Source of the DNA: Phycisphaerae bacterium
GTDB lineage: Bacteria > Planctomycetota > Phycisphaerae > Phycisphaerales > UBA1924
Direction: 5' to 3'
Length of the DNA: 64,000 nucleotides
NCBI GenBank assembly: GCA_030429705.1
Contig: JAUIES010000004.1
Span: 124,001 to 188,000 of the forward strand
Made by a program: the position numbers and the translations under genes. This document shows, piece by piece, positions 21,536 through 26,014 of the stretch; positions within the stretch are counted from its first letter, which is position 1, and each line of letters starts with the position of its first letter. The notes under the pieces are model-generated. The model was not told where the DNA came from. It ran no database searches and saw nothing but the letters and a program-made list of their open reading frames with translations.

Positions 21536-21982
21536 ATGGAAGTGCCGACGACTCGCTTTGGAATGATTGATGTCGCGGAGGATCGCGTCATCACCTTCGA
21601 GAAGGGCTTGCTCGGTTTTCCGGGTCGAACGAAGTACTGTCTTCTCGAGCCCGGTGACGATGCGTGCTTTTTCTGGTTGCAGTCGATGGAACAGCCTGAC
21701 CTGGCGTTCGTCGTCACGGACCCGAGTTTCTTCGTGCGGGACTACACCGTCCCCATTCGAGAGGAGCAAGCCAGTGAGCTTGGTCTGACGAAGCTTGAGG
21801 ATGCCCAGGTGTTTGTCATCGTGAACAAGGTGGGCGATCAGCTGACCGGCAACTTGCAGGGACCGGTGGTGATTGACACCGTCAGTCGCACCGGCGACCA
21901 GTTCGTGCTTGCGGATAAGCGTTGGACGACGCGTGAGCCTCTGGTTCGCGTGCAGATCGGCGCGAAACTCGCCTCGGCGTAA
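21536..21982 (+). CDS. fliW: Flagellar assembly factor FliW
   Basis: A 148-residue protein that binds flagellin and, when free of it, inhibits CsrA. Diagnostic segments are TRFGMIDVAEDRVITFEKGLLGFPG, CFFWLQSMEQPDLAFVV, and the C-terminal NLQGPVVID...RVQIGA. The ATG at 21536 has GGAG 8 bases upstream and begins the conserved region; the ORF is open to 21293 inside flgL. It lies about 150 bases before csrA, the arrangement of the fliW-csrA-flagellin partner switch described in Bacillus and Campylobacter. Confidence 0.95.
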   Translation: MEVPTTRFGMIDVAEDRVITFEKGLLGFPGRTKYCLLEPGDDACFFWLQSMEQPDLAFVVTDPSFFVRDYTVPIREEQASELGLTKLEDAQVFVIVNKVGDQLTGNLQGPVVIDTVSRTGDQFVLADKRWTTREPLVRVQIGAKLASA

Positions 21983-22135: not shown

Positions 22136-22438
22136 ATGCTGGTCCTATCAAGACAGCGCGACGAGGCGATCATGATTGGAGACGATGTGGAAATCACCAT
22201 CGTCGACATCCGGGGCGACAAAGTACGCCTCGGCATCAACGCCCCATCACGAATCACGGTGCACCGCAAAGAGGTGTACACAGCCATCACGAAAGAAAAC
22301 GAGATCGCTTCTCAAATCGTGAGTACAGACATTACAGAACTGGTGCACAACCTGGGCAAGGCCCACCGCACCAAGAAACTGCCGGCCGCGGGCATCGTGT
22401 CCAAACCGGCGACAACGGAGTTACGACCGACCGCGTGA
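22136..22438 (+). CDS. csrA: Translational regulator CsrA with C-terminal extension
   Basis: A 100-residue RNA-binding protein. Residues 1-60 are canonical CsrA (MLVLSRQRDEAIMIGDDVEI, VRLGINAPS, VHRKEVY), including the basic residues that bind GGA loops. About 40 extra residues follow (TDITELVHNLGKAHRTKKL...), longer than the usual CsrA tail (61-75 total); in the Bacillus system FliW binds to the extended C terminus. Start at 22136 has AAGGAG upstream. It should repress flagellin translation through the hairpins found at both flagellin ribosome sites. Confidence 0.96.
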   Translation: MLVLSRQRDEAIMIGDDVEITIVDIRGDKVRLGINAPSRITVHRKEVYTAITKENEIASQIVSTDITELVHNLGKAHRTKKLPAAGIVSKPATTELRPTA

Positions 22439-22455
22439 TTGGCACGCGGATTGCG
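22439..22455 (+). promoter_or_regulatory. Sigma-54 type -24/-12 promoter of the first flagellin gene
   Basis: TTGGCACGCGGATTGCG matches all ten fixed bases of the sigma-54 consensus TGGCAC-N5-TTGC, with the GG and GC dinucleotides 10 bases apart. It begins one base after the csrA stop codon, and the transcription start would be near 22466, about 100 bases before the flagellin ATG. Sigma-54 control of flagellins is common in other phyla. No enhancer-binding protein gene is in the window. Confidence 0.72.
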
Positions 22456-22550
22456 AGACTTTTTTCAGGCGCGATATCAACGGGATACACGCGCGTTTCG
22501 AACGAGCCCATCGGCACATGCCGTGCGGGGTTACTCAGAGCACTTAGCCT

Positions 22551-22566
22551 CAATCATGGAGGATTG
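22551..22566 (+). promoter_or_regulatory. CsrA-binding hairpin over the flagellin 1 ribosome-binding site
   Basis: CAATC-ATGGAG-GATTG forms a perfect 5-base-pair stem with hexaloop AUGGAG, an exact ANGGAN loop, which is the preferred CsrA site. The GGAG in the loop is also the Shine-Dalgarno sequence, ending 7 bases before the ATG at 22569, so CsrA bound here would block ribosome access. Confidence 0.68.
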
Positions 22567-22568
22567 CA

Positions 22569-24137
22569 ATGGCTAGGATCAACACCAATGTTTCAAGTGT
22601 CATCGCCCAGGCGAATCTCAATCGAAGTTCATCAGAGCTGAACCTGCGTTTGCAGCGACTGTCTACGGGCATGCGCATCAACCGCGGTGCGGACGATCCG
22701 GCAGGGATGATTATCTCTGAACGCATCACCACTGACATCGCCGGTATCGAGCAGGGCATCAAGAATGGTGAGCGAGCGTCATCGGTCATTGCCACGACCG
22801 AAGCCGGTCTGGCGGAAGTGTCCGAGTTGCTCAACTCGATCAAGGCGTTGATGGTGGAAGCCGCGAACACGGGCGGCAACTCCGCCGACGAGCGTGCCGC
22901 CAATCAGTTGCAGATCGATTCCGCCATCCAGTCGATTACGCGCATCAGCAACACCGCCAGTTTCGGCGGACTGAAGATGCTCAACGGCAACCTGGACTTT
23001 GTGACCAGTGGTGTAGCGTCGAGCGCCATCACCAAAGCGCAAATTTTCAGCGCACAGTTTGTCCAAGGGCAAGCGGCACAAGTTGATGTCGATGTCGTTG
23101 CGTCTGCTCAGACTGGTGGATTGTTCCTCAACGGTAACAACCCCGGAACAATCCATGATGGCAGACTCATGTCGGCAACAACGCTTCGGATCTCTGGATC
23201 GCGCGGCGTCCAGGAACTGACATTCGCCGCAAGCACGACCTACCTGCAGATCGCGACGGCCATCAACAGCCGCACATCGCTCACTGGGGTTACTGCCGAA
23301 CTCGTCGCGGGTGGTGCTTCTTCAGGCATGGTGTTCAAGAGCGAGGGCTACGGCGGCGATGAGTTCGTTTCCGTGGAACGCGTTGGCGGTCCGCCCGAGT
23401 CGGAAGACCCATTCGTGCTGTACAAGGTCGCAAACGATGGTGCGTGGCCGGACACTTCGACTGCGTTCAACTGGGCTTCGAGGATCTCGAGCGGCGACCT
23501 TGTCGTTGCTAAACGAGACGAAGGCAGAGATGTTCAGGCTCTGATCAATGGGAATCTCGCGACCGGCGAAGGGCTCACGGTCTCAGTGAACAGCACTTCA
23601 CTCGGTCTCGAACTTGACCTTGACGAGACATTCGCGATTAGTCCGGGTTCGTCATCCACGAGTTTCGACATCACCGGCGGTGGATCTCTGTTCCAACTCG
23701 GGCCGCAGATCAATGCTTTGCAACAGGTGAGTATCGGTGTGCCATCGATGGCTGCGGAGAACCTCGGAGGTACCCTCAGTAGCGGCAGCATGTTCTTCAT
23801 CTCGAGTCTGATGAAGGGGCAGCCGAACTCCATCGCGTCCAATGTTGACAGCGGGGACTTCTCGACCGCCAGCGACATTCTGGATGCCGCCATTGATGAG
23901 GTGTCAAATCTGCGAGGCCGACTCGGTGCATTCGAGCGAAATGTGCTCGACACCAATCGCCGGAGTCTGCAGGCATCATTCGAGAATCTGACTGCGAGTC
24001 AATCGCGACTCCGAGATGCGGACTTCGCGTTTGAGACCAGCAAACTGACGCGGGCGCAGATCCTGCAGCAGTCGGGCACGACGGTGCTCGGGCTTGCGAA
24101 CCAGGCATCACAATCGGTGCTTCAGTTGCTCGGATAG
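22569..24137 (+). CDS. fliC: Flagellin 1
   Basis: A 522-residue filament protein. N-terminal D0/D1 region: ARINTNVSSVIAQANLNRSS, LQRLSTGMRINRGADDPAG, and AGIEQGIKNGERASSVIATTEAGL. C-terminal D1/D0: LRGRLGAFERNVL, then DADFAFETSKLTRAQILQQSG and SVLQLLG. The middle (about 150-420) is variable surface sequence. Preceded by a sigma-54 element and a CsrA hairpin and followed by a strong terminator, so it can be a separate transcript. About half of its length is similar to flagellin 2, mainly at the ends. Confidence 0.96.
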   Translation: MARINTNVSSVIAQANLNRSSSELNLRLQRLSTGMRINRGADDPAGMIISERITTDIAGIEQGIKNGERASSVIATTEAGLAEVSELLNSIKALMVEAANTGGNSADERAANQLQIDSAIQSITRISNTASFGGLKMLNGNLDFVTSGVASSAITKAQIFSAQFVQGQAAQVDVDVVASAQTGGLFLNGNNPGTIHDGRLMSATTLRISGSRGVQELTFAASTTYLQIATAINSRTSLTGVTAELVAGGASSGMVFKSEGYGGDEFVSVERVGGPPESEDPFVLYKVANDGAWPDTSTAFNWASRISSGDLVVAKRDEGRDVQALINGNLATGEGLTVSVNSTSLGLELDLDETFAISPGSSSTSFDITGGGSLFQLGPQINALQQVSIGVPSMAAENLGGTLSSGSMFFISSLMKGQPNSIASNVDSGDFSTASDILDAAIDEVSNLRGRLGAFERNVLDTNRRSLQASFENLTASQSRLRDADFAFETSKLTRAQILQQSGTTVLGLANQASQSVLQLLG

Positions 24138-24452: not shown

Positions 24453-24474
24453 GCGTTCAAGGAGGAAACCTCGC
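24453..24474 (+). promoter_or_regulatory. CsrA-type hairpin at the flagellin 2 ribosome-binding site
   Basis: GCG-TTC-AAGGAG-GAA-(acct)-CGC: a three-pair inner stem TTC/GAA closes a hexaloop AAGGAG, again ANGGAN, and GCG/CGC can extend it past a 4-base bulge. The AAGGAGG Shine-Dalgarno for the ATG at 24476 is in the loop. The stem is weaker than at flagellin 1, but the loop and its position are the same. Confidence 0.5.
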
Positions 24475-24475
24475 G

Positions 24476-26014
24476 ATGAGTCGTATTAACACAAATGTCC
24501 AGTCAATGGTCGCGCAGCGCGTCCTTGGTCAAAACAACAAGGGTCTGACCAACGCTCTTGAGCGTCTGTCCACGGGTCTTCGGATCAATCGTGGTAAGGA
24601 CGACCCTGCAGGGTTGATCGCGTCTGAAGCACTTCGTGCCCAAGGCAAAGCGATCGAAGCATCGATCGGCAACGCCGAGCGTGCCGACACCGTCGTCAAT
24701 ATTGCAGAAGGCGGTCTGCAGGAAGTCAGTAACCTCCTGACCGAACTGCAAGGCCTGCTCACCGCGTCATCAAACAAGGCCGGTGTATCAGATGAAGAAC
24801 TCGAAGCCAATCAGTTGCAGATCGATTCGATTCTGCAAACGATTGACCGTGTCGCCGGATCGACTAGTTTCCAGGGGACCAAACTCCTCAACGGTAGCCT
24901 CGATTACGATGTCACCAGCGTTTCAAGCAATGTCAGTGACTATCAGATCAATGGTGCCAAGTTCGAAACCGACACACTCGATGTGTCAGTCATCGTGACG
25001 CAGTCAGCCCAGCAAGGTGGCCTGTACTTGTCACTTGGTGGTGGTGCACTTGACCTCGGCGGGGCCGCAGAAGTCACCAGTTCGTTCACCGTCGAGATCT
25101 CGGGTTCACTCGGCTCACGCCAGTTGACCTTTGCTTCAGGTCAGACCGTTGCTCAGATTGCAGCCGCAATCAACACCTTCTCAGATGTCACGGGTGTCAC
25201 CGCATCATCGAGCAGCAGCGGCACGACAGGTGGTATCACACTCAAGTCGACCGGGTACGGTTCAGATGAGTTCGTCTCCGTCCGAGTGTCTGATGACGGT
25301 TCAATCGGCACCGGCAGCAACATCGGTATCTACAACTTCGAATCCGCTGACAACGACTCGATCCTGTCGACGAGCCATGTTGACTTCAACAGCACCTCGG
25401 CTGCGAATGGGTACAAGGATGCCGGACAAAACATTGGCGGCACAATCAATGGTGTTGCAGCGACGGGCGATGGCAAGGACATCAGTATCAATACTGACTT
25501 CCTCGATGTCAAGATGACTCTTGACGCAACCGGGTCGCAGACACTTGGAGCAGTCGCAGCCTTCACCATCGATGGCGGCGGGGCAGACTTCATGCTCTCA
25601 CCTGATGTCGATATCTCAGGCAAGGTCTCGCTCGGTGTCGGCAATGTTGCGGTTCGCAACCTTGGGAACTCGACGGATGGTTTCCTGAGTGCACTGGGCA
25701 GCGGCCAGGCGTACGATGTGACCAACGCTGACAACCTGTCGGTTGCTCAGAAGATCGTCGACCAGTCGATCGCACAGGTCTCAGGCATGCGAGGTCGTCT
25801 CGGTGCATTCCAGTCAAATGTGGTTGGTGCAACGATCCGTAGCCTGGGTGTCGCTCTTGAGAACACCGCATCGGCACAGAGTGTGATCCGCGATACCGAC
25901 TTCGCTTCCGAAACAGCAAGCCTGACGCGGAACCAGATTCTGCAGCAGGCAGCGACCAACACCCTGTCGCTGGCCAACAACCAGCCGCAGTCGGTCCTCC
26001 AGCTGCTCGGCTAA
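24476..26014 (+). CDS. fliC: Flagellin 2
   Basis: A 512-residue flagellin. N terminus MSRINTNVQSMVAQRVLGQ, LERLSTGLRINRGKDDPAGL; C terminus RGRLGAFQSNVVGATI, IRDTDFASETASLTRNQILQQAA and SVLQLLG. The central part (about 170-400) is Ser/Thr/Asp/Gly-rich. The ORF is open to 24335, but AAGGAGG just before 24476 and the conserved N terminus fix the start. It differs strongly from flagellin 1 in the centre, so the filament may be a heteropolymer or the two may be alternative. Confidence 0.96.
   Translation: MSRINTNVQSMVAQRVLGQNNKGLTNALERLSTGLRINRGKDDPAGLIASEALRAQGKAIEASIGNAERADTVVNIAEGGLQEVSNLLTELQGLLTASSNKAGVSDEELEANQLQIDSILQTIDRVAGSTSFQGTKLLNGSLDYDVTSVSSNVSDYQINGAKFETDTLDVSVIVTQSAQQGGLYLSLGGGALDLGGAAEVTSSFTVEISGSLGSRQLTFASGQTVAQIAAAINTFSDVTGVTASSSSSGTTGGITLKSTGYGSDEFVSVRVSDDGSIGTGSNIGIYNFESADNDSILSTSHVDFNSTSAANGYKDAGQNIGGTINGVAATGDGKDISINTDFLDVKMTLDATGSQTLGAVAAFTIDGGGADFMLSPDVDISGKVSLGVGNVAVRNLGNSTDGFLSALGSGQAYDVTNADNLSVAQKIVDQSIAQVSGMRGRLGAFQSNVVGATIRSLGVALENTASAQSVIRDTDFASETASLTRNQILQQAATNTLSLANNQPQSVLQLLG

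Follow-up and report, generated by a model that had tools for sequence, protein, structure and literature searches.

Flagellin homeostasis through FliW and CsrA is already known, and its RNA targets are described for several bacteria. In B. subtilis, the hag leader carries a CsrA site over the flagellin Shine-Dalgarno (SD) sequence, together with FliW and a CsrA of the N55 type (PMC7652899, PMC6529632, PMC13407953), and two sites, BS1 and BS2, have been distinguished in it (PMC8523840). In C. jejuni, the 45-nt flaA leader forms two stem-loops with ANGGA loops, SL1 and SL2, the second of which lies on the ribosome-binding site (RBS), a structure backed by compensatory changes (PMC4894983). For fliC of C. 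difficile, the two sites TGACAAGGATGT and CTAAGGAGGG have been predicted (PMC8523840). An ANGGAN loop has also been reported for RsmE (PMC7652899). On the side of the protein, B. subtilis, C. jejuni, C. difficile and Geobacter all require residue N55 of CsrA for the binding of FliW, and the same source covers the roles of N55 and of the C-terminal extension (PMC13407953). The Planctomycetota are listed in PMC4682653 only among the phyla that may use FliW. We found no report of a flagellin CsrA target site in this phylum in the open-licence literature, as far as the text of those sources was available, and the candidate planctomycete target site described below would be new to the literature searched.

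The site lies in a 64,000-nucleotide stretch from a Phycisphaerae bacterium (the window). The 16-mer CAATCATGGAGGATTG (22551 to 22566, + strand) can form a 5-bp stem with the arms CAATC (22551 to 22555) and GATTG (22562 to 22566), which close the hexaloop ATGGAG (22556 to 22561), a fit to ANGGAN. Only 2 nt separate its 3' end from the ATG (22569) of a 522-aa flagellin, flagellin 1, and the SD sequence GGAGG (22558 to 22562, + strand) is contained in the hairpin. The original prediction of a CsrA-type hairpin holding the flagellin 1 SD in its hexaloop was exact at every base. Judged by sequence alone, the site overlaps the flagellin SD as in hag; unlike hag with its two sites, flagellin 1 shows one, on the RBS. 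The likeness to flaA extends to an ANGGA loop in a stem-loop on the RBS and to compensatory changes, but a single stem-loop is present here instead of two, extended in one sub-clade by a helix that reaches codons 2 and 3.

Taken by itself, the hairpin is unremarkable: the window has 4 ANGGAN hexaloops closed by 5 or more pairs, versus 3.1 in shuffled windows, which is about what chance would give. In its exact form, the 16-mer is present only once in the window. Its fold of -2.5 kcal/mol was equalled by 19 of 200 shuffles, and 22 of 200 shuffles of the 50-nt stretch around it were as stable (z -1.28). Folding of the leader returned the expected structure but no unusual stability: in the predicted transcript from 22467 to 22618 the five stem pairs have pairing probabilities of 0.97 to 0.99, whereas the 162-nt leader was no more stable than its shuffles (z -0.21, 76/200). 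What exceeds chance is the placement of the hairpin on a flagellin RBS and its conservation.

The genes directly upstream had been named as fliW and csrA of the same cluster, and Pfam matches bear this out. The gene for the CsrA antagonist FliW (21536 to 21982; PF02623, E 4.9e-34) is followed on the same + strand by csrA (22136 to 22438; PF02599, E 3.4e-24) and, after a gap of 130 nt, by flagellin 1 (22569 to 24137; Flagellin_N and Flagellin_C). Flagellin 2 (24476 to 26014, + strand), with the same two Pfam domains, carries the core TCAAGGAGGA on its RBS (24457 to 24466, + strand; genome match G000:C8:148457-148466) with a 3-bp stem, and the core was found in 19 of the 29 flagellin 2 leaders of the family that were read. 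With L061 and L095 excluded from the count, csrA was upstream of flagellin in 88/88 family stretches of sufficient length and fliW in 84/88, the four misses being stretches of 503 to 702 bases. Both genes thus adjoin flagellin, as in a FliW-CsrA-flagellin system. The encoded CsrA is of the FliW type, with L4, R44, N55 and an extended C terminus. All three residues were present in 87 of 87 family cluster CsrAs read, and lengths ranged from 100 to 118 aa among the eight commonest. L4 and R44 are presumably RNA contacts, and the nearest solved chain to this CsrA is 5dmb_D (Carbon storage regulator homolog), which we take to come from a FliW-CsrA complex. A second CsrA-domain protein is encoded elsewhere in the genome (G000:C4:741295-741459, - strand); its N-terminal part differs and it lacks N55, so that it is probably blind to FliW.

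To follow the site through the family, 100 genomes were searched, and a match to flagellin 1 at E 1e-30 or better was obtained in 100/100. Ninety leaders were gathered first, the source genome included, and 89 of them were readable (L061, with 13 bases upstream, was excluded). Six further leaders were examined later: four have the core, one (G077) is cut by a contig end, and one (G022) belongs to a flagellin 2-like match and has no core. Four family genomes (G056, G076, G088 and G095) have no leader in the count. All 93 flagellin 1 leaders that could be read carry the core TCANGGAGGA (89/89 and 4/4 later), and its sole variable base is N, which the CsrA loop leaves free (C in 77, T in 9 and G in 3 of 89), which gives the loops ACGGAG (77), ATGGAG (9) and AGGGAG (3). 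The two inner stem pairs, the UC preceding the loop and the A at loop position 1 were invariant in all 89 leaders, and this UC and A lie outside the SD.

Neither of the refuting outcomes named for the relatives with the original prediction, loss of the loop or lack of stem covariation, was observed. The loop was constant, and stem pair 4 covaried, being kept in 81/89 leaders through A-T, G-C, C-G and G-T (shuffled mean 70.2, maximum 76), but pairs 3 and 5 exceeded shuffles barely or not at all (324 and 51 of 2000). The arms were mostly identical (CAATC in 67/89, GATTG in 72/89); conservation of the stem is mainly invariance and not covariation, and the SD itself accounts for part of this invariance. 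Contiguous stems of 2, 3, 4, 5, 6 and 7 pairs were seen in 2, 8, 6, 30, 41 and 2 of the 89 leaders, respectively. The family thus has the constant loop and the stem kept by compensatory change that mark a CsrA/RsmA operator, with weak outer pairs in the 10/89 leaders that have only 2 or 3 contiguous pairs. The distance from loop to ATG varied (7 nt in 78 leaders, 8 to 11 nt in 11), and the leaders showed little conservation at distances above about 10 nt on the 5' side of the loop.

Additionally, the predicted fold contains an outer helix formed by CTTAGCC (22543 to 22549, + strand) and GGCTAGG (22571 to 22577, + strand; the G of ATG plus codons 2 and 3). It encloses most of the start codon, and the four of its seven pairs for which values were printed have probabilities of 0.95 to 1.0. 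Across the family, this register alone of nine tested exceeded permutations (344 versus 305, 0/500), and compensated variants such as CTTAGTC/GACTAGG were found. On distinct combinations the excess was modest (235 versus 214, 5/2000), and it weakened when the GGCTAGG rows were removed (238 versus 222.9, 44/2000). As the signal shrinks without repeats and without these rows, the outer helix was not upheld as a family feature; with less certainty, it may be a clade-level extension of the hairpin. In alignment A1 (84 distinct rows, without L061 and the GTG-started L040), the covariation score over both helices was 0.168, versus 0.115 in shuffled alignments (0/500) and at most 0.084 in slid versions. 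Paired cells made up 95.2% of the inner and 55.1% of the outer helix, and much of the variable pairing sits in the outer one. A covariance model of the leader (R1) scored flagellin 1 at E 2.6e-11 and its next match at 0.84 in the 3.49-Mb genome, where 150 of 1,786 first-look candidates were scored. Neither the window nor 8 loci gave an Rfam match at gathering score, and a known RNA family as the identity of the leader was not upheld.

The best-studied leaders of this kind, hag and flaA, have two CsrA sites, a feature that does not define the system. The flagellin 1 leader has no ANGGA from -110 to -21 and thus does not account for a second binding site of the CsrA dimer. A perfect upstream hairpin with a stem of at least 4 pairs was found in only 6/89 family leaders (shuffled mean 0.61), and an upstream CsrA site as a family feature was not upheld. 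Bare ANGGA was enriched upstream (62 occurrences versus 33.9, sd 5.2; in 48/89 leaders), at scattered positions and with a few imperfect hairpins, which may point to a degenerate second CsrA site. Upstream sites were associated with weak RBS stems (Fisher p 0.017, among related genomes); that they compensate for such stems is suggestive only. The layout in this family is mostly a single hairpin on the RBS.

We then turned to the rest of the phylum. Among 199 genomes, flagellin was found at E 1e-25 or better in 57 (among the matches listed), 52 of them outside the family. From 49 of these 52, 84 leaders were read, and five more came from the other three; these leaders are a choice among the matches listed, not all flagellin copies. 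For the upstream hairpins, 70 of the 75 leaders read from FliW-bearing genomes were compared with controls. Upstream ANGGAN hairpins with 4 or more pairs were present in 28/70 (shuffled mean 0.47) and those with 7 or more pairs in 16/70 (shuffled mean 0.02), while permuted loops gave 0 to 3 upstream hairpins. Counted by genome, a second ANGGAN hairpin lies upstream in 23/38 other FliW-bearing planctomycetes. The 31 upstream hairpins, three of which come from the FliW-lacking genomes G161 and G190, represent 29 distinct sequences, and 25/31 lie 21 to 27 nt from the SD site. They are not SDs and nevertheless share the loop type of the RBS site. Leaders of this kind, with an upstream hairpin and an SD site, have the layout of B. 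subtilis, C. jejuni and C. difficile. Indeed, the two sites of fliC resemble two-motif planctomycete leaders from outside the family, such as gacAAGGATgtc plus an SD site; the fliC sites are predictions in PMC8523840, and the present family differs in mostly lacking the upstream motif (present, with 4 or more perfect stem pairs, in 6/89). Of 23 named non-planctomycete loci, 17 were read, and 10/17 have an upstream hairpin with 4 or more pairs; a Nitrospirae bin, for instance, combines gggcAAGGATgccc with an SD site.

CsrA was detected in 49/52 and FliW in 41/52 of the flagellin-bearing planctomycete genomes outside the family. A leader site on at least one flagellin was found in 32/38 FliW-plus versus 3/11 FliW-minus genomes (Fisher p 0.0007, for genomes that are not independent). 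Three more FliW-plus genomes bring the former to 33/41 (G137 has a site, G130 and G253 do not), and 8/41 have no site in the leaders read. Three leaders with doubtful starts (L247, L311 and L314) were kept as the rule counted them; if their start were an ATG farther upstream, the RBS would carry an AAGGAG or ACGGAG site. Because 8 of the 11 FliW-minus genomes belong to one family (f29), the contrast is close to a single event. In that family (G122, G145, G166, G184, G202, G234, G249 and G278), each genome has 9 to 17 CsrA-domain matches. No FliW match was found in these 8 genomes, which are 99 to 100% complete, and with one leader read from each, 0/8 had an RBS or upstream site. The exceptions among FliW-minus genomes are G161 and G190, drafts that show sites though neither CsrA nor FliW was found, and G264, with a weak 3-bp match. 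N55 was present in 18/20 CsrAs read from FliW-plus and in 3/20 from FliW-minus genomes. Of the latter, 19 belong to f29, where 16/19 lack N55; the 40 CsrAs are a choice, in multi-copy genomes mostly of the higher-scoring ones. Since the site and mostly N55 are absent along with FliW, sequences from more clades could be used to test whether the operator depends on FliW.

We consider it very likely that the hairpin serves flagellin 1 as its CsrA operator, within a homeostasis switch made up of FliW, CsrA and flagellin, and flagellin production here is probably under the known feedback loop. CsrA binding, repression and antagonism by FliW are carried over from B. subtilis, C. jejuni and C. difficile. 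By analogy, CsrA from the gene just upstream would bind the AUGGAG hexaloop and hide the SD. Unexported flagellin would hold FliW, and CsrA would then keep flagellin untranslated; once flagellin is exported, the freed FliW would bind CsrA through N55 and the C-terminal region, and the mRNA would be released. The feedback proposed by the original prediction is supported at the level of sequence by the core in 93/93 leaders, N55 in 87/87 CsrAs, the gene adjacency and the joint absence with FliW. An alternative is a merely strong SD with flanks paired by chance, or a hairpin that lowers translation independently of any protein. In its favor, GGAGG alone is already an SD, the window has no excess of such hairpins over chance, the leader does not exceed its shuffles in stability, and most stems are identical rather than covarying. 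Against this, the invariance reaches non-SD bases (the UC before the loop and the A at its first position, 89/89), N changes within the freedom that CsrA leaves it, covariation is seen at pair 4, and the core is rare genome-wide, with 18 occurrences of TCANGGAGGA in 3.49 Mb versus 6 for its reversed control. The upstream hairpins with the same loop and the eight FliW-lacking f29 genomes, whose leaders read have no site, argue in the same direction, and we regard this alternative as unlikely.

CsrA might also bind the site while the antagonist is an sRNA rather than FliW, or a paralog without N55 might be the one that acts. The genome does encode such a CsrA-domain ORF, but fliW stands beside csrA and flagellin in 84/88 stretches, the cluster CsrA has N55 throughout (87/87), sites and N55 are mostly missing from the FliW-less genomes sampled, and a scan of the window alone gave no Rfam match at gathering score; we judge this very unlikely. 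CsrA can activate some of its targets, and stabilization or activation of the flagellin mRNA in place of repression is conceivable on that ground. Placing the SD inside the loop serves repression in B. subtilis and C. jejuni (PMC7652899, PMC4894983), which leaves activation barely plausible. For the FliW-CsrA switch itself, these leaders offer base-level evidence that would place flagellin of Planctomycetota under this feedback, and they are ready gel-shift substrates. As to its history, we suggest tentatively, and with somewhat more doubt than confidence, that the two-hairpin CsrA leader is an ancient trait of bacterial flagellin genes, common to Planctomycetota, deltaproteobacteria, Nitrospirae, Firmicutes and Campylobacter. 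It would have been reduced in this family to a single RBS hairpin, with one sub-clade adding the start-codon helix, and lost together with FliW and N55 in the planctomycete family that multiplied CsrA.

The named close relatives of the flagellin were mostly metagenome bins titled Phycisphaerales or Planctomycetota. Two metagenome-bin records with flagellins that match the query (L155 and L157) are titled Klebsiella pneumoniae and stand beside deltaproteobacterial ones; these titles may be wrong. Just past the csrA stop, the sigma-54-type sequence TGGCACGCGGATTGC (22440 to 22454, + strand) is a putative promoter of the flagellin transcript. It is the only exact match in the window, where matches with one mismatch are at chance frequency (6 versus 6.25). 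A sigma-54-like site was found in 8/88 family leaders, among them, at -112 to -143, those of the source genome, of its three closest relatives (G084, G067 and G032) and of G035, and with so few leaders it was not upheld as a family feature. Sigma-54 promoters for csrA are mentioned in a planctomycete in PMC12316311.

Two of the 18 genomic cores are the RBSs of both flagellins of the cluster. Among the other 16, one precedes a 122-aa frame (L105) and three precede frames of 8 to 57 aa, and our script found no start codon after the remaining 11. The last one, TCACGGAGGATTGA (L104, near 1501; G000:C4:1810249), stands immediately before an ORF of 273 aa that has no Pfam match and is a possible further CsrA target.
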